From Saprospirales bacterium GYS_P2D (lineage in GTDB: Bacteria; Bacteroidota; Bacteroidia; Chitinophagales; Saprospiraceae): DNA of 64,000 nt. Made by a program: the position numbers and the translations under genes. Positions 9,387 to 61,391 of this stretch are shown piece by piece. The notes below the pieces were generated by a model. That model saw nothing but the letters and a program-made list of their open reading frames with translations. It was not told the DNA's origin and ran no database searches. How positions within the stretch are numbered: the stretch's first letter is position 1; every line of letters starts with the position of its first letter. The stretch spans positions 1 through 64,000 of the forward strand of contig WUUP01000013.1 in assembly GCA_009833045.1 (NCBI GenBank), read 5' to 3'.

Positions 9387-9492
9387 CCAGCATTAGTCTG
9401 ATACTCTGCTACATTTATCGATGTATAGAACTATGCCCGACATGAGTTCGTTATATTCATAGATTCATATTGATAACAGAATATTACAAGTC

Positions 9493-9945
9493 ATGTCACA
9501 ATATAAATTCAGCACAGGAAAATTTAACCCGATAGTTGGCCTGCTCATGGGTGTGCTATTTATGGTTGGCCTATTCTGGTTAGCTAAGGGGATCTTTACC
9601 ATTTTATCATGGGCATTTCCCGTGATGATCATCGCCACTGCCATTATTAACTATCGAGTGATTTTGGGTTTTGGTAAGTGGGTGCTCAATGCACTCAAGA
9701 TCAATCCAATGATCGGGATTGTGATTGTTTTGTTTTCATTCTTGGCATATCCGCTCGTAGGGATGTTCTTACTATTCAAAGCACTCGCATCGAGAGGTAG
9801 CGGTAGGGAGCAGGTGATCGCAGAAGAAGTACAGGGCGAATACATCAATTATGAGGAGGTCGAAGTAGAAGAAGACTTCTTGAGCCTTGATGATATCAAG
9901 AAAGAAAAAGAAGCTGTCCAGGATAAGTATAGTGATCTATTTTAA
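9493..9945 (+). CDS. Small integral membrane protein of unknown function
   Basis: Of 150 residues, roughly 12-95 are hydrophobic and form three or four membrane segments. The C-terminal ~45 residues are strongly acidic (YEEVEVEEDFLSLDDIKKEKE). I do not recognise the family; similar small proteins with a charged tail occur in Bacteroidota. It stands between the ABC exporter and a glycosyltransferase on the same strand. Confidence 0.65.
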   Translation: MSQYKFSTGKFNPIVGLLMGVLFMVGLFWLAKGIFTILSWAFPVMIIATAIINYRVILGFGKWVLNALKINPMIGIVIVLFSFLAYPLVGMFLLFKALASRGSGREQVIAEEVQGEYINYEEVEVEEDFLSLDDIKKEKEAVQDKYSDLF

Positions 9946-10002
9946 TTAGCTCTCTGAGCACATAGCCATATCGGACTCAGTCTCATAGTCATATTAGTAT
10001 CC

Positions 10003-45644: not shown

Positions 45645-45734
45645 GGAGAGGTGGCTGAGTGGCTGAAAGCGGCACCCTGCTAAGGTGTTATACTGGTAAC
45701 GGTATCGGGGGTTCGAATCCCCCTCTCTCCGCCA
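45645..45734 (+). tRNA. tRNA-Ser (GCT)
   Basis: Acceptor GGAGAGG/TCTCTCC, long variable arm typical of serine tRNAs, anticodon loop CTGCTAA (anticodon GCT), T arm GGTTCGAATCC, CCA encoded. Confidence 0.95.
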
Positions 45735-45756
45735 CTATTTTGAGTGAAGATTTTTT

Positions 45757-45831
45757 CGGGGCGTAGCGCAGTCCGGTTAGCGCACCTGGTTTGGGACCAG
45801 GGGGTCGCAGGTTCGAATCCTGCCGCCCCGA
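45757..45831 (+). tRNA. tRNA-Pro (TGG)
   Basis: Acceptor CGGGGCG/CGCCCCG, anticodon stem cctgg/ccagg with loop TTTGGGA (anticodon TGG), T arm GGTTCGAATCC. CCA not encoded. Confidence 0.95.
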
Positions 45832-45842
45832 CACTGATAATC

Positions 45843-45880
45843 AAGGAGTTATGTTTTTTTTCATAGCTCCTTTTTCTTTT
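45843..45880 (+). terminator. Terminator of the tRNA unit
   Basis: Stem aaggagttatg/catagctcctt (one G-U) with a T-rich loop, then TTTTTCTTTT. Confidence 0.85.
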
Positions 45881-46319
45881 TATGCTTTCTGGGTTCAACA
45901 TAGGTAAAACATTTTCGGGTGATAATCTTCACAGACTTTTGTCTACGTACAAAGGTTAAGAAAACCACAACCACATTTTAATACAAAAAAACTCCCAAGA
46001 AATACCTTGGGAGTGCACAATGCTTGTACAGAAAACAGTATAGCACACAGTATAGCATTTATATCATTAAGCATTTTGGCTCTTTTGTCAACAGTTTATT
46101 TAAAAAAGTCAGTTAAAATTATTCAGAATACTAATCTTTTTCGTTTATAGTAATGAACTACGTAAAAGGAAAATAACAGAAGATTCATCAAGCTCATCCT
46201 TAAAATTGGATCGAGCAATAGCATCTCATACAGCATATATTAATAATAACCTCAAAATACTTGCTGATAAGGCATGAATAAAGAAAGGCATTAGCATGCA
46301 TATGCCCTTCCCATTAAGC
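45881..46319. other. Island edge: gene-free stretch with an orphan minus-strand terminator
   Basis: Actcccaag/cttgggagt (45991-46014) followed on the minus strand by seven T is a good terminator, yet no minus-strand gene ends before it. A short plus-strand reading frame near 46100-46277 (ending LKILADKA) has no start. The site beside tRNA-Pro could be the scar of a lost integrase or element. Confidence 0.5.
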
Positions 46320-47190
46320 TAACAATCTAAAATAAAATCAAATCCTCAAATAATCTCTTAGCGACCAGCCCATTGATAATGGAAGATCTGTTAAGGTTGT
46401 CAGCTGTGAGGCTGACATTCATTTCAACATTTACGGATCTGTTAGCATCAATACTTTTGCTAATAGAATATTTGAATGCCACCGGACTATTATAACCTAA
46501 TGATGTATGTGGGTGTCTGATTAATACTTTCAAATAAACAAGCGTCAAGCACTTCTTCTCTGAAGTTTCTGTTGAATCGCTCGATTTATCCATCCTGGTT
46601 TTGGTTTACCTGGTTGTATATACTTGGCTTTTATGCCATTAGCTTCACACCATTGTGTAAAGTTTTTCGATGTGAACTCTGGGCCATTATCCGTCCTTAT
46701 CTCTTTTGGTTTACCTTTTAGCTCTATGACTTGTTCTATGATTCTAATCACCCGATCCGAACTCAGACTGATACCTGCTGTAATGTTTAAGCACTCTCGA
46801 TTGTGATCATCTATGATATTAAGCACTCTTAACTTCCTGCTATCCTTTAAAGAGTCACTCATAAAAGTTCATACTCCAAGTGACATTTGGCAGTATTGGC
46901 TGGCCCAATCCTTGGGTATAGGGTCGATGGAGTCTCCATTTATGTCTACGCCTATGCTTCAATCCTAAAGCCAAAGCTTGTTTTGCATACATCCGTTTTA
47001 GCTTGGCATTCTTTGCTTCTAACTACTTCAGTCTCTTTAATTGCGATACTACCATCCCTGAGAACCGCTTGCGCCAGTTGTAAAAATAGCCTGGATTTAT
47101 CCCCAGTTCTCGACTGATATCTTCCACATTACGTCCAGATTCGTTCTCCTTGATAGCCTTAATGATCTGTGACTCTGTAAACATTTTCAT
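46320..47190 (-). mobile_element. Degenerate IS3-family element (IS407/IS2-like group)
   Basis: From 47190 the minus strand encodes an IS3 OrfA helix-turn-helix (FTESQIIKAIKENESGRN, DISRELGINPGYFYNWRKRF) that stops at codon 56. Then KHRRRHKWRLHRPYTQGLGQ leads into an OrfB integrase core at 46862-46545 (RVLNIIDDHNRE, EIRTDNGPEFTSKNF). A frameshift follows and the end lies at 46593-46327 (LGYNSPVAF). The N-terminal part of OrfB is deleted and several stops occur, so it cannot transpose. Terminal repeats were not found. Confidence 0.8.
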
Positions 47191-47244
47191 GTTACAAAAT
47201 TCAAATTTTTAAATATTTATTGGATGCATTTTTCGGGATGGCTT

Positions 47245-47410
47245 AACCAAGATTTGTGTCAAATAGCAGCTTAATAGAATGTTATCAACAAATTTTTGTG
47301 AATAAAAGAAAGAAAAAGTAGCAAATAGAAAGAAAACCTTATTATGATTATGACATCCATAAACTTAATTTTGAATTAAGCCAACCTCATATTCGGGGTA
47401 GACTCCAACA
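47245..47410 (+). mobile_element. Remnant of the 3' end of the second IS3 element plus flank
   Basis: This stretch resembles 51940-52085 over about 150 bases. Shared are cagcttaataga.. gttatcaaca, aaaagaaagaaaaagtagca, gaaagaaaacctta and the flanking end of a minus-strand gene (...STPN). It is therefore a second, truncated copy of the IS3 tail together with host flank. Confidence 0.75.
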
Positions 47411-47617
47411 GTAATACCCTCTTAATATCTCCAAAATAATTGTAGCATCTTATTAGATCCATTTTCATTGATTAATTAAAACCTTTTTCGAATAGAATCT
47501 TATTAGATCTAAGAGCCATCCCTTGATAGCACTTAGATCGCATGTTGATAGGGCTATCATTAAATAATAAAAAGGATAATAGAGGTTCTCATATTTTGTG
47601 AGACTAATCATAGCGGT

Positions 47618-47992
47618 CTAACGCATGATTGATGAATCCGAGAAATATGGAGTATCTATAGATTTGGGATAAACTTTAATCAAACTTTCGTATTTCGTTG
47701 CCTCAATATGATCCTTGGGAGTTATGAGATCTGATAAAAGACAAACCCTTGCAGTTGATTTTTTCTCTTGAAAGTAAATTTCATAAACTTTTATGAAGTC
47801 CCATCCCGTCATGAATGGCATGTTTTTATCACAGAAAATGATGTCAATCATAATAGATTTCGAGTTGATTCTTTTAATAACGTCTCGAGCATCATTAAAG
47901 CATAAAACAGATACCGTCAATAGGTTTTCCTTCAATTTTACCTCATGATAAATATTTGTAGCAGGGTCATCGTCAATCAAAACGATATTCAT
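47618..47992 (-). CDS. Single-domain receiver protein (copy A)
   Basis: 124-residue CheY-like receiver: IDDDP (6-10), phospho-acceptor Asp55 in FCDKNMPF, Ser in CLLSD and Lys in YPKSID. It has no output domain. It is paralogous to 52520-52888 (both have CDKNMPFM/TDKNMPFM and GWxFI). Could act as phosphate sink or by protein contact in the nearby kinase/LytTR module. Confidence 0.8.
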   Translation of the reverse strand: MNIVLIDDDPATNIYHEVKLKENLLTVSVLCFNDARDVIKRINSKSIMIDIIFCDKNMPFMTGWDFIKVYEIYFQEKKSTARVCLLSDLITPKDHIEATKYESLIKVYPKSIDTPYFSDSSIMR

Positions 47993-48482
47993 ATTTTAAT
48001 AGTGTAAGCTTTGTAATTTGTTCAATTGCATATTCTTTGTAAAGGAGTAAACAGGCGATATAGATACAGCACGTTTCTCATACTAATATATTGTTTATAG
48101 TAATTTGCGTTTTTTATGATAGGAAGTAGCACTGTGTAAAAGAAGCCTGCTCCACAGCAGGCTTCTATACAGTCCAATAGCCCTCTTTAGGTATGAGACT
48201 ATACATGAGAACATGAATATCACATATTTCACGAGATGTAATCCTCTTTTGTCCAATCATGTACGAATTTGGATAATTATTAGGGATATTTTGTTAAGAG
48301 ACTTAAGTACAGATTAAATTTTCATCATGCTCCTATAACAGAGGAACATATTAAGGCTTCTTCCAACTACAATGTTGGCTAATTACCAAAAGAAGGTATT
48401 CAACATGGAATACCTTCTACATAGTCAACAAGGTTAGGGAAAAATAATTGAATTATTGAATCATGACTCAACACACATTTAT
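47993..48482. other. Intergenic stretch with two minus-strand terminator hairpins
   Basis: agaaggtattc/gaataccttct (48391-48418) and agaagcctgct/agcaggcttct (48141-48166) are perfect 11-base stems, each followed on the minus strand by TTTT. The first would end the secreted-protein transcript. The second has no gene upstream, so a short RNA between them is possible. Confidence 0.6.
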
Positions 48483-49049
48483 CTATTTGTTATTTTTTCG
48501 ATACATTATGTGTGGGTTCGTAAAAGCAACTCTTTTCCGTTTAGCACAAGTAAATACGCTTTCAGAATTATCACTCTTAAGGTCTGTACTATTCATGCAC
48601 TGAGGAGGCTGCAGGTTAGCAATGAAACCCATTTTGTTCTCTGGACAACTAATAAATGACATGGGTCTGAAATCTATAAGAATCGTACCTCCATCATTAT
48701 TAGCTAAAGGTTGATTTTGTACACCTATTAGACATCCAGCAGAATTGAGTGACCAAGTAAACTTTGGAGCTATAGTTCCGTAAATGGCATTCAGACTGTC
48801 TATGGGTTCAATATTTGCAAAGCAAATTGATATTTCAAGTGGCTTAGACGTATAATCATTGTATTCCCTTCCCCCATGATTGTAAGTAAATTGGAGGGTG
48901 CCGTTTTGGTTTTCCATTAACGGAGCTGGACTTATATTTCCAGCTTGCAGTGATGGATTGTTTAGACAGTCAGACTGACTGAACAGCTGCGGTTGCAACT
49001 TTATCATGACAACCATTATCCAAAGGATGTTTAAAAATGGAATTTTCAT
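48483..49049 (-). CDS. Secreted protein, truncated paralogue (copy A)
   Basis: The ATG at 49049 gives a signal peptide; an ATG at 49073 adds 8 residues ahead of it. The domain SDCLNNPSLQAGNISPAPL, FTYNHGGREYNDY, ISICFANIEP, CLIGVQNQ, GFIANLQPPQCMNSTDLKSD parallels residues ~20-165 of the protein at 53450-54421. After FTC the sequences diverge and this copy ends in a short basic tail, lacking the Calx-beta and membrane/sorting parts. It would be released rather than anchored. Confidence 0.75.
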   Translation of the reverse strand: MKIPFLNILWIMVVMIKLQPQLFSQSDCLNNPSLQAGNISPAPLMENQNGTLQFTYNHGGREYNDYTSKPLEISICFANIEPIDSLNAIYGTIAPKFTWSLNSAGCLIGVQNQPLANNDGGTILIDFRPMSFISCPENKMGFIANLQPPQCMNSTDLKSDNSESVFTCAKRKRVAFTNPHIMYRKNNK

Positions 49050-49059
49050 GGCTATACAG

Positions 49060-49326
49060 TTATATGAGATCAACTTCGTGCCGTCCTAAAAGAAACGCCA
49101 TTATTTTACGGCTGTCTATTTGTTCAAGCTGATGTTTTTTGGTAGTTGATATTGATGAATTTATTCGATTACAAATAACCTCAAATCCATATGGACTACG
49201 GCGGTTAGTTATAATCTGCACTATACCTTCACAATTTCGTTTCATCCCCTTGGCGATTGAACTCTCAGTCACAGTTAAAGGATATAGTAAAGGTCCAGCG
49301 GACGTTATCATGTATGCTGCTTTCAT
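49060..49326 (-). CDS. Fragment resembling the C-terminus of the second secreted protein (copy A)
   Basis: The 88-residue reading frame contains CEGIVQIITNRRSPYGFEV, which resembles ECMRKIITNRHVAFKIRF at the end of the protein at 54851-55237, and it occupies the same place in the gene order. No signal peptide is present, so it is likely a decayed remnant rather than a working gene. Confidence 0.4.
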   Translation of the reverse strand: MKAAYMITSAGPLLYPLTVTESSIAKGMKRNCEGIVQIITNRRSPYGFEVICNRINSSISTTKKHQLEQIDSRKIMAFLLGRHEVDLI

Positions 49327-50075
49327 ACTGCGAATAAGCAGAAAGAACTACATGTCATGTGGATCAATGATTGAATTTGGTAACATTAATTATCTATCAG
49401 TGATATTTCAGTAGGAATCTGTGAATTAATGGGAGAGTTCACATTGTATATATACCTAATCAGGTTTTAGATTTATATAAAAATGGAGAGAAGAATGTCT
49501 ATTGACACACTTCTCTTACCATCGTAGGTCATTGAAAGTGTGTTTATAAAAACGCTATTAAACTTTGTTCATATAGAATACAATTTCTATAAATTTTTTA
49601 TTATATATTTTTTTCATTTCGAATGGCCATATTTGGTTGACAATTAATATTTCCAGTGTGTTCTCTAATTTAGAATGTATAGATACAATTCAAAACAAAC
49701 TTAATTTGAAAAAGTAGGGACAAACCCCTTACGCTGCCCCTACCCACATTGATTCTTAGGTTACTAAGATTACAAATAATTAATGCACTCCCATCACGAA
49801 GCGCAGTGCAAACATATGTTTGGTGCGCAGGTGATGTTAGATTCTATACAAATTCAGTAATTATGATGATGTAATAGGTTCGATTATGGGGGAATTCAGA
49901 ATATTAGGGTTTTATTAATAGATGAAGGGCAATAGAGGTGGGTTTTCCTGAATTCATGCTTATAAACATGAATCTTGAACCTGTCAATAATTAATTCAGC
50001 ATTGACTTATGTGCACTGTTAGGATATTACTATCGTATTTACCATCCGCTTACGTATGAGATAAAATTTAATTTC
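49327..50075. other. Intergenic stretch upstream of LytTR gene A
   Basis: AT-rich and without a supported gene. It contains accccttacgct at 49725-49736 followed by gcccctaccca. A nearly identical block lies at 55307-55329 at the corresponding place of copy B. Confidence 0.55.
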
Positions 50076-50803
50076 ATGTTACTTGAAGATTTAAAAATTG
50101 CTGTTTTAGATGATGATCTTATTCATATTGACATGCTCATGTACAAATTAAAAGATATAGGCATTAAGGACATTGTTCCATTCACCCAAACTGATCAACT
50201 GATTGGCGCCTTATCTACCAATAATAATTTTGATTTATTGATATCAGACTTTTTTTGGATAATGGATATGAATTCAATATTTTTTATAGTAGAAATAGTC
50301 AATATTTCAATTTACCTATAATTGTATTAAGTAGTTTTTATGAGGATAGGGTTCTTGATAAATTGATAGATATAGGTTCAATCAGCTTCATTTCAAAAGG
50401 CAGTAGTGCCTTTGAACTCAAAAAGACTATACTCCTTGCTCTAAACGAAAAGAATGTCCCGAAGCTAAGAGTAAAAAGTTTGAAATTTTTGGATTCGATC
50501 TTTGTAAGGTCCGGGCACAAGCTGAAAAAAGTAAAAGTTGCTGAAATCCAAATCGTTAGAGTATCTAACAATTATTTAGAGTTGATCACAGATGATTTCA
50601 AGACAGTTGTTCGAAGCACGCTAGTAACTTTTTCTAAATCATTACCTGATTATTTCGTAAAAAGCAGTCAGAGTGAGCTGGTTAATATGAAATACATTAA
50701 TGAAATTGATTTGAAGAACAGCTGCATAATATTGAATAGTGGAGAAGTTCTCGCTCTATCACGAAACTATAGAAAGGAGTTCATTGATAGATTTGAGTTA
50801 TAG
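50076..50803 (+). pseudogene. LytTR response regulator, copy A, frameshifted in receiver
   Basis: Residues AVLDDDLIHIDMLMYKLKD and LLISDFF start a receiver. At the T7 run 50250-50256 one base is missing: adding a T restores FLDNGYEFNIFYSRN and joins the frame of 50255-50803. That frame continues with LPIIVLSSFYEDRVLDKL and a LytTR domain (IFVRSGHKLKKVKVAEIQIV, RVSNNYLELI, SELVNMKYINEIDLK, LSRNYRKEF). The paralogue at 55707 is intact. A deletion, sequencing error or slippage could explain the break. Confidence 0.85.
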
Positions 50804-50866
50804 ACAGGGTTCACGCCCCAAATCGGGCAGTGAGTTTGGTTTGAATTTAGCAGACAACTTACTGAT

Positions 50867-52017
50867 ATGATAGGGAAAAAATTTACATCGATATTTAAGA
50901 CACAGGTAGTGCTGGATGCATTGTGGGAGCGCTACAGTTTATCACAATTAGCTGAGAAGCATTAACTTTATCCGAATCAGATATCAAGCTGGAAACTAGA
51001 GTTTCTGTCTGGAGCGGAATCAGTATTTGGCCAAGGCAAGATAAGCCCGAAGAATCAAGCTGAAGAGGAGAGAGCTAAATTGCTAAAAACGATAGGTCAA
51101 CTGAAAGTGGAGAATGATTTTTTAAAGGAGGCCTTGCGGTAAGAGGATTACAGGAGAGAATAAAGATGATAAGCAAGGATCATCCCAAATTGAGCATCTA
51201 CCGACAATGCAAATTGCTGGGGATACACCGATCAAGTCTATATTATAGACCCAAGACAGAGAGTGCCTTAAATCTGGAATTGATGAGATTAATGGATGAG
51301 CATTATTTACATCACACATACAAAGGTAGCCTACGCATGTATAAATGGCTAAAGAGAAAATGCTATAAGATCAATCATAAGCGGGTTGCGGCACTTGTAT
51401 TATCGAGTTATGGGATAATGTCTGGCAAGCACACCTCAAGACGCTGAATGGCGCATAAGGTATTCCCTTATCTGCTTAGGCACCTGAAGGTAGAAAGAGT
51501 CAATCAGGTCTGGGCTACAATCAGTACCTACATACCCATGGAAAAGGGCTTTATGTATCTGACAGCAATTATTGATTTACACTCCAGATATGTGGTCAAT
51601 TGGTTCATCAGTAACTCCATGGATGCCAAATGGGTCATCGAAGTAATGCAAGAGGCTATAGACGAATATAGTCCTCCTGAGATTGTCAATACGGATCAGG
51701 GCAGTCAATATACCTCAGAAGAATTTGTATCTGTAGTGCTCAAAGAACCACAGCGTACTAAGCTATCCATGGATGGCAAAGGCAGAGCCACAGATAATGC
51801 ATTCATCGAGAGCTTGTGGAAGAGCATTAAGTATGAGAAGATATACCTCAGTCCTCCCATAGATAGAGTAGATCTGTATCAAAAAGTAGCAGAATATTTT
51901 GATTACTATAATTGTCAAAGACAGCATTGGATAAAACACCTAGGATTTGTATCAAACGGCAGCTTAATAGACAGTTATCAACATTTTTTTGTGAATTCTA
52001 AAAGAAAGAAAAAGTAG
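50867..52017 (+). mobile_element. Defective IS3-family element (IS3/IS150 group)
   Basis: OrfA 50867-51142 (KFTSIFKTQVVLDALWERYS, then WKLEFLSGAESVFGQG) has an in-frame TAA at 50963. OrfB 51166-52017 (SKDHPKLSIYRQCKLLGIHR, SLYYRPKTE, VNTDQGSQYTSEEF, SMDGKGRATDNAFIESLWKS) has a TGA at 51445. The first catalytic Asp is lost (WATISTYIP where active elements have WATDITYIP). The element is inactive. Terminal inverted repeats were not identified. Confidence 0.85.
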
Positions 52018-52071
52018 CAAAAAGAAAGAAAACCTTATGATAATTATGACATTTATAAACTTAGTTTTGAA

Positions 52072-52467
52072 CTAAACCTTTCCTTCATTTGGGGTAGAAT
52101 CCGCATAATATTTATTTTTCTTTCGTTCCCTTAGTAAATTTAATCTTTCCTTGAGTTTTTTAAGATCGGCCTTGTTGCGAGTACTTATATGATCCTCTAT
52201 GAAGATAAATTCTATATGTGCAGAGTCTTCGGCAAACATGAAACTATTTAGTTCACAAATGTTCGCCTTAAAAAGATCTAAACTTTGAAATATTATAGCG
52301 CTGATTGATGCCTTTTGATAAGATAATTGGATTAATAGATCTTTGAATAATTTGGGATTAGCCCTCTTTAGTTCAAATGTTTTGTCGCATCCGTATTTTA
52401 TGAAGTGCAATTTTTGTTTATTTAATTTCTTGTCAGTGATATGAAATTTAGCTATTCCTACTTTCAT
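52072..52467 (-). CDS. Unknown small protein
   Basis: 131 residues, Lys-rich, ending YYADSTPNEGKV. I do not recognise a family. The same ending is found decayed near 47400, next to copy A of the duplicated unit. It lies 52 bases downstream of the receiver gene and may be co-transcribed with it. Confidence 0.55.
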   Translation of the reverse strand: MKVGIAKFHITDKKLNKQKLHFIKYGCDKTFELKRANPKLFKDLLIQLSYQKASISAIIFQSLDLFKANICELNSFMFAEDSAHIEFIFIEDHISTRNKADLKKLKERLNLLRERKKNKYYADSTPNEGKV

Positions 52468-52519
52468 TACTTAGTACACAAGGCTTGAGTCAATCATAAT
52501 ATTTGATAATTGGGTATAC

Positions 52520-52888
52520 TTATTTAATTAGATTCAGATAAGGAGCTTCTTGGGACTTGAGGCTCATATGAATCGGTCTTTTCAGAGTTTGGATTCTCTT
52601 GTAATCTTCACTATCCAAATGATCAGATATTAAGCACACTGTAGGATTCCATGTTTGGCTTTGAATTAATTTTTCTAGTTTAGATATAAATTCCCAACCA
52701 TTCATAAATGGCATATTTTTATCAGTCAAGATCAGATTCGCCTTAGGAAGTAGACTGGATTTTATATCAGAGATTACATTGAGGGCATTTTCATAACTAT
52801 ATACACTGATTTCTGGATAAATATCTTTCAATAGAATACTATGATATTCGTTCGTGAACGGATCATCATCTATTAGTACAGCTATCAT
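52520..52888 (-). CDS. Single-domain receiver protein (copy B)
   Basis: 122 residues with IDDDP (6-10), Asp56 in LTDKNMPFMNGWEF, Ser in CLISDH and Lys in SLKSQE. Paralogue of 47618-47992. No output domain. Likely a phospho-relay or phosphate-sink partner of the local kinase, by context. Confidence 0.8.
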   Translation of the reverse strand: MIAVLIDDDPFTNEYHSILLKDIYPEISVYSYENALNVISDIKSSLLPKANLILTDKNMPFMNGWEFISKLEKLIQSQTWNPTVCLISDHLDSEDYKRIQTLKRPIHMSLKSQEAPYLNLIK

Positions 52889-53449
52889 TTTGGTCTTTTT
52901 TGTAGGAAAGCCCTTACATCATATGGGCCTTCTTTAATTTAATAGGTTGGGACCATTAGGTCTCACGATATCAATATCAGAGTTATGGTTGATTCATCAA
53001 ATGGTAAGGCTTAGTAATGATGCTATGATGTCCCTTTTATGTTATATGAAGTTTGTTAATGTCCTTATCTGTAATGTAGGTTTCATTGTTCTTCCACAAG
53101 GAGTACGCTCAGTCAAACTAATGGAAGTCTGTAATGTCATTTTATTGCGGCCATGTATGATGCTGTCAAATTTGTTCTTCTATACTCACAGAAGTGTTAG
53201 TGTTTAAAATCGATGAATATAATTTGTGGAGATTTGGGCCCACTTTCATCTAAATAGCGTGAACTATCTGTTTGGTAACGATATTGCTTTGACCATTCAG
53301 ATATATGTCAAGCCATTTGAGTAAGTGTTATATTATGGCTGGTTCCGATATGTAGGGTTTAGGTATCAATAAGTAAGGACGTGATATTAAATACTCATCC
53401 TGTAGTTAGGGAAACAAAACTGACTGTTAGAATTTATCTTAGTACATAT
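52889..53449. other. Intergenic stretch
   Basis: AT-rich; an 86-codon plus-strand ORF (52947-53207) lacks recognisable features and has no counterpart in copy A. No hairpin as strong as those at 48141 or 48391 was seen. Confidence 0.4.
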
Positions 53450-54421
53450 TTAAATTTGCGACGAATATTTAGAATTTCTATTTGTCTGACTCAGATATAA
53501 TGTGCCCAATATTAGTAAACTTATGATTAATAGGATTAGGCCCCACTCTCCTAATGTAGGAATTGAATTTGGGTCTTCAATAGTGACTATGCCTACACCG
53601 AAATCTGTATTGATGGTAGCATTATCGGCATTGATAAGGGTAAGTGTGAATGTTTCACTTCTCTCTATCTCGTCGTCAGTATATGTAGGTATGACCACCG
53701 ATATGCACTGTGTTCCTGCCGGTATGCTAATGCTGATATCCTGGTGATTATAATCGTTTACACCAGCTGAACCTGTTCCTATTTCGAGATCTGCTGTAAT
53801 ATCATTACTTACAATTTGGTCGAGGCAGATAGATACGGTAGCATCCTGCCCTTCAATGACTCGTGCGTCTGATATACTTATAACGGGCACGTTCTCGCCC
53901 TCGTCCGGTAGTGTGTCATCATCCGTGACACAGGTGAATGAGCGCTCCGAATTGTCTCCTTTAAGATCAGTAGCATTCATACATTGGGGGGGGTGTATGT
54001 TAGCTGTAAAACCCATCTGATTCGCTGGACAGGCAATTGGATTAGTTTGTACAAAATCCACTGTGATTATACCTCCATCATTATTGACAAAAGTTTGATT
54101 TTGCATCCCTACTAAACAGCCAGAGCCATTAATTGACCAGTCAAATCGATCATCAAATGTACCACCTAAAGATGATACGCCTGTGGCTGGAGCAATATTG
54201 GCAAAGCAAATAACTATCTCCATTGGATCACTTGCAAAATCAGCATATTCTTGCCCTCCATGACTATAGGTTAATTTAAATACTCCAGAAGATCCTGGAG
54301 AGAGAGGTGCGGGGTCAATATCGCCCGCTTGTATAGATGGATTATTAAGACAGGTGGATTGCGCTACCATTTGGCTGCCGAGAAGCATCAAGGCAATTAA
54401 ATTCAATAGTGTAGTTTTCAT
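53450..54421 (-). CDS. Surface adhesin-like protein with Calx-beta domain and IPTL-CTERM anchor (copy B)
   Basis: Signal peptide (LLNLIALMLLGSQMVAQ), an N-terminal domain shared with 48483-49049 (CLNNPSIQAGDIDPAPL, CLVGMQNQ, PPQCMNATDLKGDN), a Calx-beta domain (~178-285; VPVISISDARVIEGQDATVS, ERSETFTLTLINADNA). It ends with NSIPTLGEWGLILLIISLLI, the IPTL-CTERM sorting signal recognised by exosortase-like systems, then basic residues. Predicted to be sorted to or anchored at the surface. Divergent from the LytTR regulator gene. Confidence 0.85.
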   Translation of the reverse strand: MKTTLLNLIALMLLGSQMVAQSTCLNNPSIQAGDIDPAPLSPGSSGVFKLTYSHGGQEYADFASDPMEIVICFANIAPATGVSSLGGTFDDRFDWSINGSGCLVGMQNQTFVNNDGGIITVDFVQTNPIACPANQMGFTANIHPPQCMNATDLKGDNSERSFTCVTDDDTLPDEGENVPVISISDARVIEGQDATVSICLDQIVSNDITADLEIGTGSAGVNDYNHQDISISIPAGTQCISVVIPTYTDDEIERSETFTLTLINADNATINTDFGVGIVTIEDPNSIPTLGEWGLILLIISLLILGTLYLSQTNRNSKYSSQI

Positions 54422-54850
54422 TTTTAATATCCTTTGTTAGTGAATTATAGGCTCTTTATAATTCTCGATGGTGATAGCAAAGATCGTGTGGGAAATATAC
54501 ATATTAAATTTGTTCATAATGTGTAGGGGCAAATAGTCATATAATGATGCTAAGAAGTTAATATTATTATGAATATGCTAATAATCAGTTTTTATATGCC
54601 TTAGTTAGCTGAATAGGTTTATGAAATGGCCAAATAGATTTGAAATTATTCAAAATGAATATTCATGCGGTGATGTAGTTTTTACGAAGTAGACCCCGCA
54701 ATATTGACTACCAGCATTTACACTCATTTTGAGATATCTAACAGGGAAAATAAACTAATAGCGCAGCACGATTATGGTAGGAGTAGCAATCCTTTATTCT
54801 TAATTTTTTAAGTAGCTTATTGCTCGGTCTTTAGCTATCAACGTGGGATG
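54422..54850. other. Intergenic stretch
   Basis: No gene or clear signal seen between the two secreted-protein genes; in copy A the corresponding gap is only about 10 bases. Confidence 0.4.
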
Positions 54851-55237
54851 TTAATTATTAAAACGAATCTTGAACGCCACATGGCGATTCGTAATGATCT
54901 TTCTCATACATTCCCCATTAAAAACCTTTATAGCTGTCACGGCATTGCCTTCATCAGCATAACAGTTATATAGAGTGTCTTTAAAGGTTGCGTAATAAGT
55001 GCCAATAGGTAAATTGCTAATATCCGTTAATTCATTGACCGCAGAAGCTGGAGTCCCTGTATGAAAGCTCAATATTACACCAGAATTTAGAACACTCGAA
55101 TCTATTAAGCTCAATGCAGAATTGAGGTTAATTCTTTTTGTTGAGCAATTAGTTTCTATTTGAATTGAGTCTTGAGAAAAACTACTTGTTTGTATTGCTA
55201 CCATTGTTAATAATATTACACAAATTCGTACAGACAT
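54851..55237 (-). CDS. Small secreted protein with Ig-like domain
   Basis: The ATG at 55237 yields a signal peptide (SVRICVILLTMVAIQTSSFS); the frame is open to 55351 but that part (LGGGSVRGYASS) covers a repeated DNA block and is probably untranslated. The core LSFHTGTPASAVNELT and IGTYYATFKDTLYNCYADEG is very like the repeats LTYHTGLPVSTANQV and YYTAFYDAANDCFSDE in the giant adhesin at 61446. It ends CMRKIITNRHVAFKIRF. Function probably surface-related. Confidence 0.65.
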   Translation of the reverse strand: MSVRICVILLTMVAIQTSSFSQDSIQIETNCSTKRINLNSALSLIDSSVLNSGVILSFHTGTPASAVNELTDISNLPIGTYYATFKDTLYNCYADEGNAVTAIKVFNGECMRKIITNRHVAFKIRFNN

Positions 55238-55706
55238 TAGTCTGGTGCTTGGCATCTCTAAAATCTTTTTAGCCCTTGACGGCCTTAAAACAAGAGAGGA
55301 AGCATAACCCCTTACGCTACCCCCTCCCAACAGTATAACCTCAAAAAACATGAGATTATTAAGCTACCCGTCACGATGGCTAGCATTAAAGAAAATAGCT
55401 TTGCCTTTGAGTAAGGTTGAGTATGAGGTTGTGCGAATTAAACAGCTTAATATTCAGTCGTAATTTGTTGCTGAACGGCAGGTCGTTACTGTAATTTTGG
55501 AGTAATGCAGGTTTGTTTAAGTAATAATACAGGATGTATCCATGAATTGACACTTTACACCGCCTATATCAATTATAGATAACTACTCTGGCTAATATAT
55601 ATTATCAAATATTTTGACTATAGACAAAATAATGGCATCTTTCCACCGCCCCTTATGCATGTGAAAGAGCATCGACCTATTAAGTTGTTTATTCAAATAA
55701 TTTTAC
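55238..55706. promoter_or_regulatory. Divergent control region of copy B
   Basis: Between the secreted-protein gene and the LytTR gene. It contains the block taaccccttacgct accccctccca (55305-55329) shared with 49722-49746. A site for the LytTR regulator is plausible here but not proven. Confidence 0.4.
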
Positions 55707-56435
55707 ATGGATATAACCAAATGTTCTGTTGCTCTAATTGACGATGATCCTATACATTTAGAGATTATTGGAGCTAAATTACGGAACGTAGGAGTAACTA
55801 ACCTGCAAACATTCAGTGAGCCTAAGGATGTATTGACAGCATTTGAAGAATCCCACTTTGATTTACTTTTTAGTGATTTTTATTTAGGTGGCAACTTTAC
55901 TTTTGCAGACTTATTTAATAATAGTTTGTTTATCTCCAATACGCCTACTATTATCATATCGAGCTTCTATGATCAGTCCGTGTTAGACCAGATTTTACAA
56001 ATTAAACCTTTACAATTTCTTTCAAAAACCTGCTCGGAGTTTGAAATGACCAAGGCCATAGCCATGGCTATGCAGCAACAATCTCATAATATCATCAGAC
56101 AGTCAAAGGAGAAACACAGTGCAATTTTTGTTAGGTCTGGTTCGAAGCTCAAGAGAGTTATAATCAGTGAGATATGGCATATTAAAGTATCTAATAACTA
56201 TCTCGAAATAATATATTCTAACAGATCCAAAGTCGCCATCAGAAGTACCCTGAACGATTTCCTCAAAAAATTACCTGATAATTTCATTAAAGCTAACCAA
56301 AGCGAGGCAGTAAATATGTATCAGATTAAAGAGATCGATATCAAAAATAGTCTTGTTGTTCTTTTGAATGATACAGAAATAGCATTATCACGTAATTTTA
56401 GACGCTTATTCATAGATAAATTTCAATTTAAGTAA
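55707..56435 (+). CDS. LytTR-family response regulator (copy B, intact)
   Basis: Receiver (1-~125) with Asp12-Asp14, phospho-acceptor Asp57 in LLFSDFYLGG, Ser in IIISSFYD and Lys in FLSKTC; LytTR DNA-binding domain ~140-242 (IFVRSGSKLKRVIISEIWHI, KVSNNYLEI, ANQSEAVNMYQIKEIDIK). Paralogue of the frameshifted gene at 50076. It precedes a histidine kinase gene and is divergent from secreted-protein genes, so it probably controls them. Confidence 0.92.
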   Translation: MDITKCSVALIDDDPIHLEIIGAKLRNVGVTNLQTFSEPKDVLTAFEESHFDLLFSDFYLGGNFTFADLFNNSLFISNTPTIIISSFYDQSVLDQILQIKPLQFLSKTCSEFEMTKAIAMAMQQQSHNIIRQSKEKHSAIFVRSGSKLKRVIISEIWHIKVSNNYLEIIYSNRSKVAIRSTLNDFLKKLPDNFIKANQSEAVNMYQIKEIDIKNSLVVLLNDTEIALSRNFRRLFIDKFQFK

Positions 56436-56519
56436 AATGGAAAATTTAAGACCGTATAAGAATTGAATAACGCTTTGATGGAAACGTGGTGCCCAATTTG
56501 AAAGATTTGATGATCAGAA

Positions 56520-56879
56520 TCTGCAGTGCCTTTGAACTTAAAAAGTCTGCGCTCCTTGCTCTAAACGAAAAGAATGCAACGAAACCATGAGTGAAAGGTT
56601 TCAAATTATGGATTCGATCTTAATAAGGTCTGGGCACAAGCAACACTTATCTCGAGTTGATCACAGATAATTTCGAGACAGTTGTTCAAAGTATGCTAAT
56701 AACTATTTCTAATTCATTACCTGACTATTTTATGAAAAGTAGGCAGAGTGAGCTGGTTAACATGAATTACTTTAACGAAAATGACTTGAAAGAACAGCTA
56801 CATAATATTGAATAGTGGAGCAATTCTGACTCCAATCACGAAACTATAGAAGGGAGTTCATTGATAGATTTGAGTTATA
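56520..56879 (+). pseudogene. Third, decayed LytTR fragment (copy C)
   Basis: The DNA follows 50402-50803 closely (tgcctttgaactYaaaaag, ctccttgctctaaacgaaaag, gagttgatcacagat, cattacctgaYtat, gagttcattgatagatttga). An internal part is missing after gggcacaagc, and frameshifts and stops abound. It is nearer to copy A than to the adjacent copy B. Confidence 0.85.
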
Positions 56880-56918
56880 AACGACCATTCAAATCTCTCA
56901 TCATTAAATTTATACCAT

Positions 56919-58892
56919 ATGCCAGTTTTTAGACTATCCAACAAATCATTTGTTCAATTGTACTTGTACTTATTGGCTCTTATAGGTGTATCGTTCACCC
57001 TACAAATAAACAAGATATACGCAAGTAATACCGACTGTGTTAAGGTATTGAACAGAATAATTATAGAAGATTCACTTGATGATCTTGATAGTGTGATGAC
57101 ATGCTGGCAAAATATTGACTTTTTGGACTCCATAATTCACATATCGCGAAATTTTTATGAAAAGAAAGATACTCGTCATATCTATTTGGACAGCTTAATT
57201 AACATATATGATAATAGAGTTGAATCTAAATTGATTGCGATGGATAGGCTAGTGTCTCACTTTATTCTGCTCAATAAGTTTGACGTACCCGATAATTATA
57301 TAAATCAGTTAGAATTTTATACTACATCAGAGTCACCAGATATTCAGTTAAAAGCCTATAACATATTAGTATATTTTTACTACAGCCAGAATTTGTATGT
57401 TAAACAATGGCAAGCTGCTCATAGAGGCGAAACCATAGCAAATAACATTGGAGATAAAACTATGGTTCTTTATTTCCAGGATTACAGGAAACGTATTTTT
57501 AGTAGATTTTCAGCACATAAAATTTATCTGGACTTAGTACTAAATCAACATCATCAGGTATTAGAATCCGGGAATGATGAGCTGATTATTGGTTCTTATT
57601 ATAACATCATGGATGCCTATTTTAATTTGCGTATGGAAGATGAGCTTAGAGATGTTGTGAATGAGTTTAGAAAGTTATTTGGGCATAATACATCATTATT
57701 ATACACAGGCTATGTCAACTGTTTGATCGGTGAAAGTTATCTCCGTCAGTATTGCTACGATGAGGCGAAAGAGGAATTCAGTGAAGGTATTGCGATTTCA
57801 AAGGAGAGGGAAGAATTTTACGAACTTGCCCTGAATTATAACGGATTATCGATGTTGTACTACGCACAAGATGACATTCAGAATTCACTAAATTATTTAG
57901 ACTCAGCTAAGAAATATGTAGTTAATAGTCAATCCGAGAATCATTTCATAAAGCACGAGATTAATCTCTATCGTTCTATGGGCGAAGACTCCTTATTGTT
58001 AGACGCCTATGAAAGGAGTTTTCAACTGCAAACCGAGAAAGGCAATTTATTATCGCAAGAAGGAGACTTATTATCGGCTATAATTAATGAATACTCTGAT
58101 CAGAATATTGAACTAGAAAAAAGCTATCAGAAAAAAATAAGGAATGGGATTGTAGCTATATGTGGAATATTAATGGTTATCCTGATTATAAGAATAATAA
58201 TGTATAGGCATAAGGCTATACGTAAGATTAAAACTCTTAAAGCGAACAAAGAACAATTAGAAGTACTAAGTAAAGAATTTGAAATACTCAATGTCTTCTT
58301 ACTTCATGATCTTAATTCTTCGATACTATCTCTGAAACATCTGACATCAGAAGACATGAATGGCAGTTCCTCATATCAATCAAATAATGAGATACTTCAA
58401 GATATTTTGGATTCAATGCTTAATCTGACTAAATCTGTATTTGATTTCAGAACCAGCCAACCAATATTATCTCCCGTACAGTTTACTGAGATGATTCAAT
58501 CTATCTCTGGTCGAGATGGTCTGAAGAATGTAGAACGCCCACTAAAATCCAGAATAGAACTGTCTCAAGAATACAAGTATAAAACTGCTTTTTATATAAA
58601 TGTCATTATCAGAAATACTATAGATAATATAGTCAAGCATACGTCTGCTCAGGATATACATCTCACATTGACTGATTCGCCTGAGTCTCTATACATATAT
58701 GTATCCTATGACGGTTCGCCAATGTCGGACGATATCATCCAGATATATCGAGGGCAGAGGATGACTCACGCTCGTAGGAAAGGAATCACACTAATCAGAA
58801 CTTGTCTGGACAAATTATCTAGTTCTATTGACATAACATATTCACAGCGTATGAACCATATACATATATCTATACCCTTAGGACATACTTGA
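56919..58892 (+). CDS. TPR sensor histidine kinase, divergent catalytic domain
   Basis: Signal/membrane start (LYLLALIGVSFTLQI), helical TPR-like region (~50-395), membrane helix (GIVAICGILMVILIIRIIMY), then a kinase core with likely phospho-acceptor His463 in FLLHDLNSSILSLKHL and an N box IIRNTIDNIVKHTSAQDIHL. The G boxes are weak: YDGSPMSDD in place of DNG.G and RRKGITLIRTCLDKL as the second. It may still bind ATP, or act as a pseudokinase/phosphatase. Likely partner of the LytTR regulator upstream. Confidence 0.8.
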   Translation: MPVFRLSNKSFVQLYLYLLALIGVSFTLQINKIYASNTDCVKVLNRIIIEDSLDDLDSVMTCWQNIDFLDSIIHISRNFYEKKDTRHIYLDSLINIYDNRVESKLIAMDRLVSHFILLNKFDVPDNYINQLEFYTTSESPDIQLKAYNILVYFYYSQNLYVKQWQAAHRGETIANNIGDKTMVLYFQDYRKRIFSRFSAHKIYLDLVLNQHHQVLESGNDELIIGSYYNIMDAYFNLRMEDELRDVVNEFRKLFGHNTSLLYTGYVNCLIGESYLRQYCYDEAKEEFSEGIAISKEREEFYELALNYNGLSMLYYAQDDIQNSLNYLDSAKKYVVNSQSENHFIKHEINLYRSMGEDSLLLDAYERSFQLQTEKGNLLSQEGDLLSAIINEYSDQNIELEKSYQKKIRNGIVAICGILMVILIIRIIMYRHKAIRKIKTLKANKEQLEVLSKEFEILNVFLLHDLNSSILSLKHLTSEDMNGSSSYQSNNEILQDILDSMLNLTKSVFDFRTSQPILSPVQFTEMIQSISGRDGLKNVERPLKSRIELSQEYKYKTAFYINVIIRNTIDNIVKHTSAQDIHLTLTDSPESLYIYVSYDGSPMSDDIIQIYRGQRMTHARRKGITLIRTCLDKLSSSIDITYSQRMNHIHISIPLGHT

Positions 58893-58918
58893 CCCATCTA
58901 ATGAGATATCGACAGATG

Positions 58919-58950
58919 CATGATGTATGATTTTTCTATCATACATCATG
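58919..58950. terminator. Perfect hairpin after the kinase gene
   Basis: catgatgtatgat/atcatacatcatg, a 13-base stem with a 6-base loop, 27 bases after the stop; no T run follows, so termination strength is uncertain. Confidence 0.6.
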
Positions 58951-60050
58951 TCCTATATACGTTGAGTTGCCTAATCATGTGACTCATCAGAATAGTACTA
59001 TTATGTAATGGTATCTATCGCTTAGCTTAGTCGCCCACATCATGTGGGTCAAAAAAATGTGAATTGCTGAATATTGGTATCTTATATATTACAAATATTT
59101 ATAATATGTCTTATCTTTACGGTGTAGACCTCCTTTTTTTGGACGGCAATGCTAGTAAGCTGACAATAATTGACTGGAGATGTTGATAAATGATGTTGAC
59201 TTTTTTTGATTTTTGTAGTCTAATTGTAGAGAGTCCATAGGGGGGCAGGATCATTTTTGTTGTCTCGTCCATGGAACCTCGATAGTTCTAACCTCTTTAA
59301 TACCAATAATCGAATCTCAGATCCCATCACATTTATCTGAGTTCAGGATGTGGCTGTGCTTTGGTACAGTTACATGTTGATAGTCCTAACCCCTTAGAAG
59401 TTCTTATTTGTTATTTCAGATTGGTACGATTGATTGATTGTTTCACACATTCATGATACAGTATGGTTATGGGTTTATATGAATAGACGTTGGTACTATG
59501 CTATCTCATCTACATCCTATACGATCCTGTAGTGAATTGTTGCTTCATCAATTCAATTGGCCTATCTCATTTGATTTCTGTTTATGATTAACACCGGATC
59601 AATGGTGTTGATTCATAGCTAGGTATATTTTTTTATTGTCACTCTTTTTGAGATATGATACACTCATTACACCCTCATTCGATGAGAGCTACATTATGGT
59701 TCATTGCTATGGCTAATTGCGCAATTTGTGCAATGGGTTTATACCTATACTCTCAGTTGATAGATGAAATGACAATATCCTTTTCTTGCAATCATATGAT
59801 GGATGCTATGATGATCTGTGGTATGATCTACGCTGTAAAACATTCAATTAAACATAAATATTTCTTAACCGCTCCCACAACGGTTTTGACGCCCGTTTTG
59901 AGATGTCCTGACAATAGACCCTTATCGTCCGCTGTCAGCAAAAAAATTGTACAACTTAAAAACAACACCGTACAACGGACATGTCTGACAGCTATTGTCG
60001 AAAAGGGATCGTCAGTAACCCAAAATCGGAGCAACAAATTTTTTTTGAAC
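58951..60050. other. Long stretch without a supported gene, structured leader at the end
   Basis: Small hairpin cccaca/tgtggg at 59032-59046. The frame of the next gene is open from 59655, but the signal peptide at 60051 marks the real start. Bases 59906-60010 hold ctgaca.../...tgtcag and related inverted pieces plus gtacaac twice, suggesting a folded leader RNA. Confidence 0.45.
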
Positions 60051-61391
60051 ATGAAGAAATTCTTTTCATTTTTTGCCTTTGCAATATTGTGCTACTTTAA
60101 TACTCTACAAGTACAGGCACAGACCATCACAGTTTGTCATACAGACGGCTTTGACTACGGTTATTCCCTCGATGGAACTTATAGAGACTATTCCATTCTT
60201 AAATTGAATAATCCTAATAACTTCGGACCTGCAGGAGCCTGCCCTTACGATATTAATGTTGTACCCTTGAACGATATCTCTGCAACAGGCATCGCTGCAG
60301 CTGGATGTAATATTATTGATATGGGTGTACCTTGGGCGGCGTCAGGTTATGATGTGTCAAATTACACTGAAGCTCAACTACAAGCTTTAAAGACATGGTC
60401 AGATGCCAGCATCAACAACGTCATTATTGCTTATCAAGGTGGTATAGATCCATTGTCTGATGCTACTTATGACAGTGGTAATTATGGTAATGTTAATCCA
60501 AATGGCTTTACGCCATTTGGGGAGAGTATTTTTCTTAATGGTAATTTTGGATCTACCGGCTCCTTTAATCAAGGAGGTAGTTATCAAGGATATTTTTGGC
60601 AATTTGATCCAAATGATGGAGTCATTGTTCAAGATGGCGATGGAAACCCTACTGGCATTTTGGATTGTAGCAATGGGAATGTTTACTTCGCCGATGTAGA
60701 TTTGGTAACCGAAAATGGTGGTTTAACTTCTAGTAGTTCCATTACGTCAAATACAGATATTTTTTGGGCGAATCTTATGTGTGGATTATCCGATTTGGTA
60801 ACATACGGAACGGCAGCAACAGATGCTTGTAGTTTCAACTTTTCTTGTGATTTCGCTGATGCCACTGCCGACTGTGATGGCGATGGAGTACCAAATGGTA
60901 CAGATAGCGATCCAGGTGACCCTTGTTTACCAGCACAATTAGAAGGTTATACAGGCTTTGATGCCAGTAATATGACGTGGGCTAGTGTCGATTGTGATGG
61001 TGATGGCGACACCAATGGAGCCGAAGTGACAGCAGGTTCAGATCCTTATTGTGCTACAAGTACTGTAGCTAATCCTATTTCTTGTGACCCTTGTGTTCCT
61101 GACCCAAATGCCTTAGCCTGTCCTACAGGCGACTTCGATGGCGATGGCGTAGCCAATGATACAGACACTGACCCAAGCGATCCATGTATCCCGGTGCAGA
61201 CAGAAGGTTATACAGGTTTTGACATTAGTAATGCGATATGGACAGCTGCGGATTGTGATGGTGATGGTGACACCAACGGAGCCGAAGTGACAGCAGGTTC
61301 TTCTCCATATTGTGACCAAAGTACGGTAAGCAATCCAAGTGGCACTTGTCTTTGTAATGCAGGTAGTGCTGCCCCACAGTTTGGTAATTAA
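60051..61391 (+). CDS. Secreted protein with thrombospondin-3-like calcium-binding repeats
   Basis: The ATG at 60051 is chosen since it starts a clear signal peptide (KKFFSFFAFAILCYFNTLQV QAQ region); upstream in-frame codons to 59655 do not look like it. Residues ~25-275 are a Cys-containing domain I cannot name (VCHTDGFDYGYS, NNVIIAYQGG). Residues ~278-425 hold DCDGDGVPNGTDSDPGDPC and DFDGDGVANDTD repeats and two copies of GYTGFD...DCDGDGDTNGAEVTAG, as in TSP type 3 calcium sites. No anchor is seen. It precedes the giant adhesin gene by 54 bases. Confidence 0.8.
   Translation: MKKFFSFFAFAILCYFNTLQVQAQTITVCHTDGFDYGYSLDGTYRDYSILKLNNPNNFGPAGACPYDINVVPLNDISATGIAAAGCNIIDMGVPWAASGYDVSNYTEAQLQALKTWSDASINNVIIAYQGGIDPLSDATYDSGNYGNVNPNGFTPFGESIFLNGNFGSTGSFNQGGSYQGYFWQFDPNDGVIVQDGDGNPTGILDCSNGNVYFADVDLVTENGGLTSSSSITSNTDIFWANLMCGLSDLVTYGTAATDACSFNFSCDFADATADCDGDGVPNGTDSDPGDPCLPAQLEGYTGFDASNMTWASVDCDGDGDTNGAEVTAGSDPYCATSTVANPISCDPCVPDPNALACPTGDFDGDGVANDTDTDPSDPCIPVQTEGYTGFDISNAIWTAADCDGDGDTNGAEVTAGSSPYCDQSTVSNPSGTCLCNAGSAAPQFGN

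Follow-up and report, generated by a model that had tools for sequence, protein, structure and literature searches.

An old gene-set duplication at the probable regulatory front of a Saprospiraceae surface-protein locus, and a possible C-terminal sorting tag

Introduction

Among the Bacteroidota, giant repeat proteins of the cell surface are described from SprB-like adhesin operons that depend on the type IX secretion system (T9SS), and the C-terminal T9SS signals are divided into types A, B and C, with about 100 residues for type A and 150-235 for type B, as given in PMC10202324 and PMC12618676. We analysed a stretch of 64,000 nucleotides (the window) of Saprospirales bacterium GYS_P2D, positions 1 to 64,000 of contig WUUP01000013.1, in which two collinear sets of genes encode a single-domain receiver, a secreted protein and a LytTR response regulator, beside a probable sensor kinase and a row of genes for secreted repeat proteins. 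The locus shares with the adhesin operons, as far as these two sources describe them, its giant repeat proteins, a type-A-like tail on the protein at contig position 67444 and a regulator nearby. It differs in carrying other C-terminal ends and in that Pfam gave no type A or type B domain in the other proteins scanned from the window and from the right part of the contig; moreover, the contig stops inside the last giant, ahead of any visible partner gene.

The second close counterpart is the LytTR two-component system. As in such systems, the regulator called LytTR-B here has both of its domains over the Pfam cut-offs and lies 483 bp before the probable kinase gene. Unlike them, our locus has a kinase with a weak match, a lone receiver and two secreted proteins on a divergent arm, and three LytTR sequences, two of them broken.

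A third likeness concerns protein sorting. The IPTL-CTERM signal is linked to exosortase H, which is also named in the NCBIfam model midcut-by-XrtH. Secreted protein 2 of our locus ends in an IPTLGEWG segment and a hydrophobic stretch, for which the Pfam model PF18203 gives 22.8 bits, over its cut-off of 20.8; the NCBIfam models TIGR04174 and NF033207, in contrast, remain below cut-off, with an NCBIfam score of 15.6 against 20.5. Here we describe the duplication, its age and its relation to the insertion sequences (ISs) around it, together with a short motif at the end of one of the duplicated genes.

Materials and Methods

The genome comprises 4.95 Mb in 28 contigs, and the contig carrying the window (C4; 75,841 bp) was followed to its end, so that positions beyond 64,000 are given as contig positions. 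Contigs of this genome are labelled C, loci taken out for reading L and other genomes G; L028 is the right part of contig C4. Z scores compare protein alignments with shuffles. Synonymous (pS) and non-synonymous (pN) differences were counted over codon alignments, and trees were made of 19 rows for LytTR regulators and 29 rows for receivers. Order-level searches covered 396 genomes, or 198 for the secreted domain, and family-level searches covered 199 genomes; peptide patterns were also scanned in a collection of, by its own description, 84,980 species. In the sister genome G310, where an empty site was looked for, the flank stops at a contig edge.

Results

The two gene sets have identical order and strands, with the receiver and the secreted protein on the minus strand and the LytTR regulator on the plus strand (Table 1), and these three elements can be paired at the protein level. 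The receivers are identical in 46 of 118 residues (39%, Z 35), the secreted proteins in 85 of 157 (54%, Z 76) and the C-terminal parts of LytTR-A and LytTR-B in 80 of 180 (44%, Z 50); the receiver half of LytTR-A agrees with LytTR-B in 21 of 69 (30%, Z 14). A fourth element, a small secreted gene on the minus strand between the secreted and LytTR genes, is intact in unit 2 and is paired by position only. LytTR-A and LytTR-B are sisters with support of 100/98, and receivers 1 and 2 are sisters with support of 99/92, receiver 2 being a long branch. Within this genome, the secreted domain is confined to contig C4. When the DNA of 44-75.8 kb was compared with itself, the units matched at 63% over 429 columns in the secreted genes, 61% over 311 columns in LytTR-A/B and 66% over 105 columns in the receivers.

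The clearest shared non-coding DNA is a 24-nt element, AACCCCTTACGCT[G/A]CCCC..., which is 88% identical between the units and stands upstream of both small secreted genes; the remaining intergenic DNA aligns poorly. The 16-base core of this element has two exact sites in the genome, both of them here, and two more with two mismatches, against one site for the reversed control. In unit 2 the element is readable as codons of an upstream extension, and it may be either coding or an operator. Because the order and strands agree, the identities reach 39, 54 and 44%, the pairs are sisters in the trees and the 24-nt element is common to both units, these comparisons support a gene set that was duplicated rather than assembled from independent genes.

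Table 1. Features of the locus, with positions in the window unless a locus label is given.
Feature	Position	Strand	Evidence or remark
Receiver 1, single-domain response regulator	47618-47992	-	Pfam Response_reg 4.4e-7, 30.5 bits (cut-off 30.2)
Receiver 2, single-domain response regulator	52520-52888	-	Response_reg 9.1e-7, 29.5 bits, slightly under the cut-off of 30.2
Secreted protein 1	48483-49049	-	Carries the shared N-domain and a probable signal peptide and ends in ...AFTNPHIMYRKNNK; ATG at 49049 taken as start
Secreted protein 2	53450-54421	-	Shared N-domain together with a Calx-beta-like domain and an IPTL-CTERM-like end
Presumed site of eroded small secreted gene 1 and its upstream region	49060-49750	-	Placed by position and weak DNA alignment
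Small secreted protein 2	54851-55351	-	Ends ...CMRKIITNRHVAFKIRFNN; true start probably downstream of 55351
LytTR-A, frame-shifted response regulator	50076-50803	+	Frames 50076-50321 and 50255-50803; LytTR 2.4e-15
LytTR-B, intact receiver and LytTR DNA-binding regulator	55707-56435	+	Pfam LytTR 1.9e-12, Response_reg 9.2e-10, both over cut-off
LytTR-C, broken fragment	56525-56882	+	86% to LytTR-A; absent from the original prediction
24-nt element	49723-49746 and 55306-55329	.	88% identical; upstream of both small secreted genes
Probable membrane sensor kinase, TPR-like input	56919-58892	+	HATPase_c 1.3e-4, 22.8 bits, under the cut-off of 26.4; TPR weak
Secreted protein with TSP3-like repeats	59655-61391	+	Next gene to the right after the kinase; TSP3_bac at 20.8 bits, short of its cut-off (25); true start probably later
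Start of 1978-aa giant, Big_9 and TSP3-like repeats	61446-64000	+	Continues to contig position 67382 (L028)
Tagged proteins	Window 48483-48521; L124 6768-8915; L138 1565-8122, 8352-11315; L139 1-4335, 5414-6916; L140 1625-6013; L142		TNPHIMY-type C-terminal tail
Defective IS, split rve transposase	50806-52100	+	Pfam rve 4.3e-19; in-frame stop 51445-51447; left limit approximate; right end set by three copies
IS right-end remnant of the same kind	47251-47406	+	83% to 51944-52102
Probable broken second IS remnant	46327-47190	-	Transposase-like fragment 46545-46862; short open frames; limits approximate
Small gene	52072-52467	-	Like the N-terminal part of a resolvase-like protein; last codons within the IS end
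tRNA-Ser(gct), tRNA-Pro(tgg)	45645-45832	+	ARAGORN; left edge of the AT-rich stretch

How old is this duplication? Synonymous sites of the two units are close to saturated (pS 0.79 and pN 0.30 for the secreted proteins, 0.90 and 0.41 for the receivers, 0.92 and 0.30 for LytTR-A/B), and by this measure the duplication is old, not recent and segmental. The divergence is not uniform over the block: the edges are 83-86% alike and the interior 49-59% in codon alignments. At the edges, the DNA self-comparison aligned 47251-47406 with 51944-52102 at 83%, and 50405-50805 of LytTR-A with 56525-56882 at 76% with gaps. The sole young repeat consists of LytTR-A and LytTR-C, which agree in 307 of 356 nucleotides (86%) against 216 of 397 (54%) for A/B and 187 of 353 for B/C; a second, younger event would therefore have copied a type-A LytTR gene beside the kinase. 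Both type-A copies are broken. Secreted protein 2 is closer to a paralogue at contig position 68272 than to secreted protein 1, with an N-domain 83% identical to it (pS 0.64, pN 0.07; synonymous and non-synonymous divergence dS 1.46 and dN 0.07), and the secreted domain, as read from its codons, is under constraint.

The left edge belongs to an IS that we take to be of the IS3 family, a broken copy of which stands between the units. A third copy of its right end occurs at C26:274016-274255 within an unrelated flank, with a weaker match on C11, and the three right ends align as far as ...GGGGTAnAnTC and then diverge. The IS tails resemble each other because both are IS ends, and they are therefore silent on the genes between them. 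In the copy at 50806-52100, the terminal inverted repeats are weak, their score being reached by 101 of 1000 shuffles, and no target-site duplication was seen there by eye. When the pair was considered as a composite transposon, neither flanking IS had an intact transposase, the left one being an end remnant. The probable second remnant further left gave a weak translated match to the transposase of this copy (46817-46605 with 51568-51780, E 7.8e-5). The small gene whose end falls within the IS is 25% identical over 96 aa to a resolvase-like protein (L125 10346-10927); it had no Pfam match at 0.1 and no structure match at E 1. On contig C5, a receiver of the same subfamily as ours is also near the resolvase-like gene (L125 9394-9795 and 10346-10927).

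A short motif closes secreted protein 1, which ends in ...CAKRKRVAFTNPHIMYRKNNK, that is, in TNPHIMY and a basic tail. A 715-aa secreted protein on C23, which adjoins the receiver scoring best against receiver 1, ends in ...CQRAMTNPHIMYYGARHR. In a scan of the 396 genomes of the order, the strict TNPHIMY pattern was found at four places in this genome and at none for the reversed control; in this genome, chance would give 0.0009 matches (uniform bases). The two further places are the C-termini of secreted proteins of 2185 and 987 aa on C25. As the motif had been first spotted by eye, a scan of the species collection for A-x-TNPHIM[YF] served as an independent test. It returned two stretches, both encoding giants of Saprospiraceae metagenome-assembled genomes (MAGs) with the motif at the very C-terminus, in frame and after a cysteine at the same spacing; because the starts fall beyond the DNA read or right at its margin, signal peptides are not visible. 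The gene next to one of these giants ends in ...CKTTLTNPHVMFFRRY, and a looser pattern, matched in three of the 199 family genomes, adds G485 (...CGIMVTNPHVMYFRKN).

Taken together, TNPH[IV]M[YF], preceded by a cysteine and followed by mostly basic residues, ends eight proteins in five unrelated upstream contexts and in four genomes or records, some of which are metagenome-assembled, with close kinship possible among some. Comparison of up to 150 residues upstream of the eight tails gave five unrelated groups (secreted protein 1; the C23 protein; both C25 proteins with the second CALDEM gene; the first CALDEM gene with that of G485; and the JAJCYJ gene), with a highest between-group Z of 1.6. 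Of the eight proteins, five were scanned with NCBIfam (secreted protein 1, L124, L138 8352-11315 and both of L139) and secreted protein 1 alone with Pfam; in none of these scans did a model cover the tail. In the open literature searched, no paper was found for the string TNPHIMY, for Saprospiraceae with type IX secretion and C-terminal, or for Saprospiraceae with LytTR and adhesin. The end of small secreted protein 2 is a possible variant of the same tail.

Other ends occur beside this motif. A second kind, C...AP.[IVF]...N (APMVIIGNN, AAPQFGN, APIISGN), is seen on surface proteins of the same loci (L028 10272-11825 and 1655-3391; L040 17853-18854). A loose tail expression matched 11 of 333 open-frame tails, a sample biased to these loci, and 10 of the 11 belong to proteins with C..AP..N or TNPHIMY ends. 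The IPTL-CTERM-like end of secreted protein 2 (53450-53560) has seven weak matches in this genome, at C22:297922, C21:234244, C11:537696, C26:11282, C2:149760, C11:1105654 and C25:253891.

To the right of the 1978-aa giant lies the secreted protein at contig position 67444, whose T9SS tail is type-A-like and whose N-domain is a distant copy (28%). It is followed by a Calx-beta protein at contig position 68272, with the N-domain of secreted proteins 1 and 2, and by a second giant with a HYR domain, which runs off the contig end. The paralogous secreted proteins thus have one N-domain, close in three and distant in the protein at 67444, and four ends: the TNPHIMY tag, IPTL-CTERM-like, T9SS type-A-like and APMVIIGNN. 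Por_Secre_tail (PF18962) has no match in secreted protein 1 or 2 and gives 24.9 bits (cut-off 27) for the protein at 67444, whose counterpart in G342 is over the cut-off at 43.4 bits. The Calx-beta-like domain of secreted protein 2 scores 23.2 bits, under its cut-off of 27. Small secreted protein 2 is akin to the start of the 1978-aa giant (36% over 77 aa, Z 13). AlphaFold models of three secreted-domain sequences were beta-rich with a mean pLDDT of 57, judged too poor for a fold search.

Is this arrangement kept elsewhere? In G342, of another genus of the family, one strand (L040) carries a LytTR gene (9267-9986), a kinase gene (10059-10850), a secreted protein with a T9SS tail, a 1741-aa giant, a Calx-beta protein and a further giant. 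Its LytTR regulator is 35% identical to LytTR-B. The Calx-beta proteins, whose tails are alike, agree at 53% over 103, and the repetitive sequence of the giants aligns over 634 columns at 41% and over 435 at 46%. The order LytTR, kinase, giant and Calx-beta in G342 therefore points to a conserved unit made of the two-component pair and the surface operon to its right. Relatives of LytTR-B at E<=1e-22 occur in 4 of the 396 genomes of the order, our own included, and receiver matches at E<=1e-12 in 85. We read 16 LytTR-relative neighbourhoods outside C4 and seven receiver neighbourhoods (six in this genome and one in G388), and none held the receiver, the secreted domain and the LytTR regulator together. 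In G388 (L130 9053-11217), two receivers of the subfamily are transcribed divergently to a LytTR regulator, from which a single small gene separates them; the secreted domain is lacking, and the resemblance to the divergent arm is loose.

In 4 of the 16 neighbourhoods (L040, L041, L080 and L091), a giant of 1400 aa or more is close to the LytTR and kinase genes, a count that has no control set and by which an association is a suggestion. In L090, a 1832-aa frame adjoins the LytTR gene, and in L078 a 1639-aa frame lies 4.5 kb from it. L091 (7086-19376; C2 of our own genome, G000) holds another pair of TPR kinase and LytTR regulator beside a 2935-aa giant with Laminin_G domains.

The duplicated region lies in AT-rich DNA. 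The GC content drops from 0.42 to 0.34 at 46 kb, and the AT-rich stretch of 46000-60000 (0.33-0.36, against 0.38-0.47 leftward in the window) begins directly past the genes for tRNA-Ser and tRNA-Pro. A 73-aa frame at 45680-45901, opposite in strand to both tRNA genes and overlapping them, is probably spurious.

Discussion

How might this locus work? We consider it probable that this region forms the regulatory front of a locus for surface proteins, in which a divergent arm and a LytTR gene were duplicated long ago and then decayed. The kinase and LytTR-B would stand at the head of the row of secreted repeat proteins that runs from 59655 to the contig end, with a second arm, comprising the small secreted protein, the secreted protein and the single-domain receiver, diverging from the LytTR gene. 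After the ancient duplication of this arm and LytTR, a type-A LytTR gene would have been recopied beside the kinase, leaving fragment C; both type-A copies would then have broken, and IS copies would have come to flank unit 1. In operation, the kinase may sense an envelope cue and phosphorylate LytTR-B, which may switch both the divergent arm, at the 355-bp divergent region 55352-55706 as its position suggests, and the surface genes to its right; the lone receiver may be a phosphate sink or connector that tunes the signal. The duplication might also have diversified how one kind of domain is sorted. We infer the regulation from gene order and protein families; that the C-terminal ends act in sorting is likewise an inference.

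Several observations weigh against this reading. By phmmer, receiver 1 scores receivers on C23 (83.6 bits) and C5 (76.9 bits) above receiver 2 (72.7 bits). The kinase is below its Pfam cut-off, and its relatives at E<=1e-15 occur in our own genome only, one of the three genomes of the genus, of which one of the other two is 58% complete. The kinase of G342 is weakly like ours (24% over 103 aa), and the giants after the Calx-beta protein are weakly alike (25-28% over short pieces, best E 0.004). The divergent arm, that is, the receiver and the secreted domain, is absent from the G342 locus. A search of 198 genomes of the order recovered the secreted N-domain from our own only, and in the species collection 24 stretches fitted its peptide pattern and none encoded a relative. 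The N-domain thus has no outside match and is missing from G342, and there is therefore little outside support for the divergent arm as a functional unit. Finally, the small gene 1 fragment has no protein-level match to small secreted protein 2 (Z 0.4).

These points also limit what can be kept of the original prediction, which had proposed two units of the same order, one of them eroded. The order holds for the receiver, secreted and LytTR genes, whereas small gene 1 is placed by position and a weak DNA alignment only; the erosion is borne out by LytTR-A, split in two frames, but receiver 1 and secreted protein 1 are open frames. It had also regarded protein identity below about 35%, with no shared non-coding DNA, as the mark of independent genes. 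The receivers, the secreted proteins and the C-terminal parts of LytTR all exceed that line, and the 24-nt element is shared, whereas the receiver half of LytTR-A falls below it and small gene 1 is unmatchable.

Could the similarity have come about otherwise? Independent recruitment of common families, arriving in the same order by chance, would fit the abundance of receivers and LytTR regulators in the order and the phmmer scores of receiver 1. We regard it as very unlikely, in that the receivers are sisters despite the long branch of receiver 2, whose best non-self match is receiver 1 (71.7 bits), LytTR-A and LytTR-B are sisters as well, the secreted domain occurs in this genome solely on this contig, and order, strands and a rare 24-nt element agree. 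A recent segmental duplication, in which recombination between IS copies amplified one cassette bounded by them and neutral decay eroded it, is suggested by the same-orientation copies at 47251-47406 and about 50806-52100 that bracket unit 1 and by the likeness of LytTR-A to LytTR-C. Such an event is quite unlikely: the interior genes, with synonymous change near saturation, are far less alike than the edges, LytTR-A pairs with C rather than B, and the copy on C26 indicates that an IS end brings its own similarity. We rejected it on the unequal divergence of edges and interior and on this third IS end. The IS tail and the end of the small gene at 52072, which had been counted as part of the duplicated unit, are hence withdrawn from it as an IS right end. 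A defective IS does stand between the units as had been proposed, but its matching ends are no evidence for a duplicated unit.

A mobile surface-regulation module, moving as a unit by IS or by tRNA-targeted integration, would account for an AT-rich stretch adjoining two tRNA genes and for the lack of kinase relatives at E<=1e-15 in the two other species of the genus. Among ten proteins scanned, however, the sole integrase-type match is the broken IS transposase, whose frame is interrupted; the secreted domain is in no other genome of the 198; and the neighbourhoods read for six additional subfamily receivers of this genome held no relative of LytTR-B or of the secreted domain at E<=1e-3. We therefore think such a module unlikely, and a recurrent one was rejected after reading the 16 LytTR and 7 receiver neighbourhoods. 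The earlier view of a mobile or amplifying module does not fit the stop in the transposase, the absence of a visible target-site duplication, the near-saturated pS or a secreted domain present in one genome of 198; nor did the five-gene set recur, the other genus having LytTR, kinase and surface operon without the divergent receiver and secreted half.

The motif at the end of one gene is the more surprising result. It is quite possible, although we would not yet call it probable, that the segment of about 16 residues, C-x(4-8)-TNPH[IV]M[YF] followed by mostly basic residues, serves surface proteins of the Saprospiraceae as a hitherto undescribed tag for sorting, carried on unrelated upstream domains. 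Paralogues in the locus would have swapped it for ends of the IPTL-CTERM-like, type-A-like or C..AP..N kind; proteins with one type of N-domain, governed by a single two-component system, may in this way reach different sites on the surface. Since 16 residues are far fewer than the extents of type A and type B signals, the end would be a tag in its own right or else the terminal part of a domain not yet recognised. Some counts speak against a tag. The strict pattern occurs in only 2 of the 396 genomes, and in the other, G166, it lies within a presumably peptidase-like protein, probably by chance; one looser match (G429) has just 12 residues before the motif and is probably also due to chance. 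In the species collection, about 5.6 chance matches were expected (uniform bases) and two were observed, so the evidence lies in the position of the matches and not in their number.

In this study, an old duplication that is real has been set apart from the IS ends that had seemed to prove it. The logic of the locus, a two-component pair heading a row of surface genes, is kept in a second genus, and four paralogues with four different ends make the sorting question directly testable. If the TNPHIMY motif is a sorting signal, this environmental family of Bacteroidota would possess a route for secretion or anchoring that goes unannotated by the models scanned, and giants of the surface that lack a recognised signal could be assigned to it.

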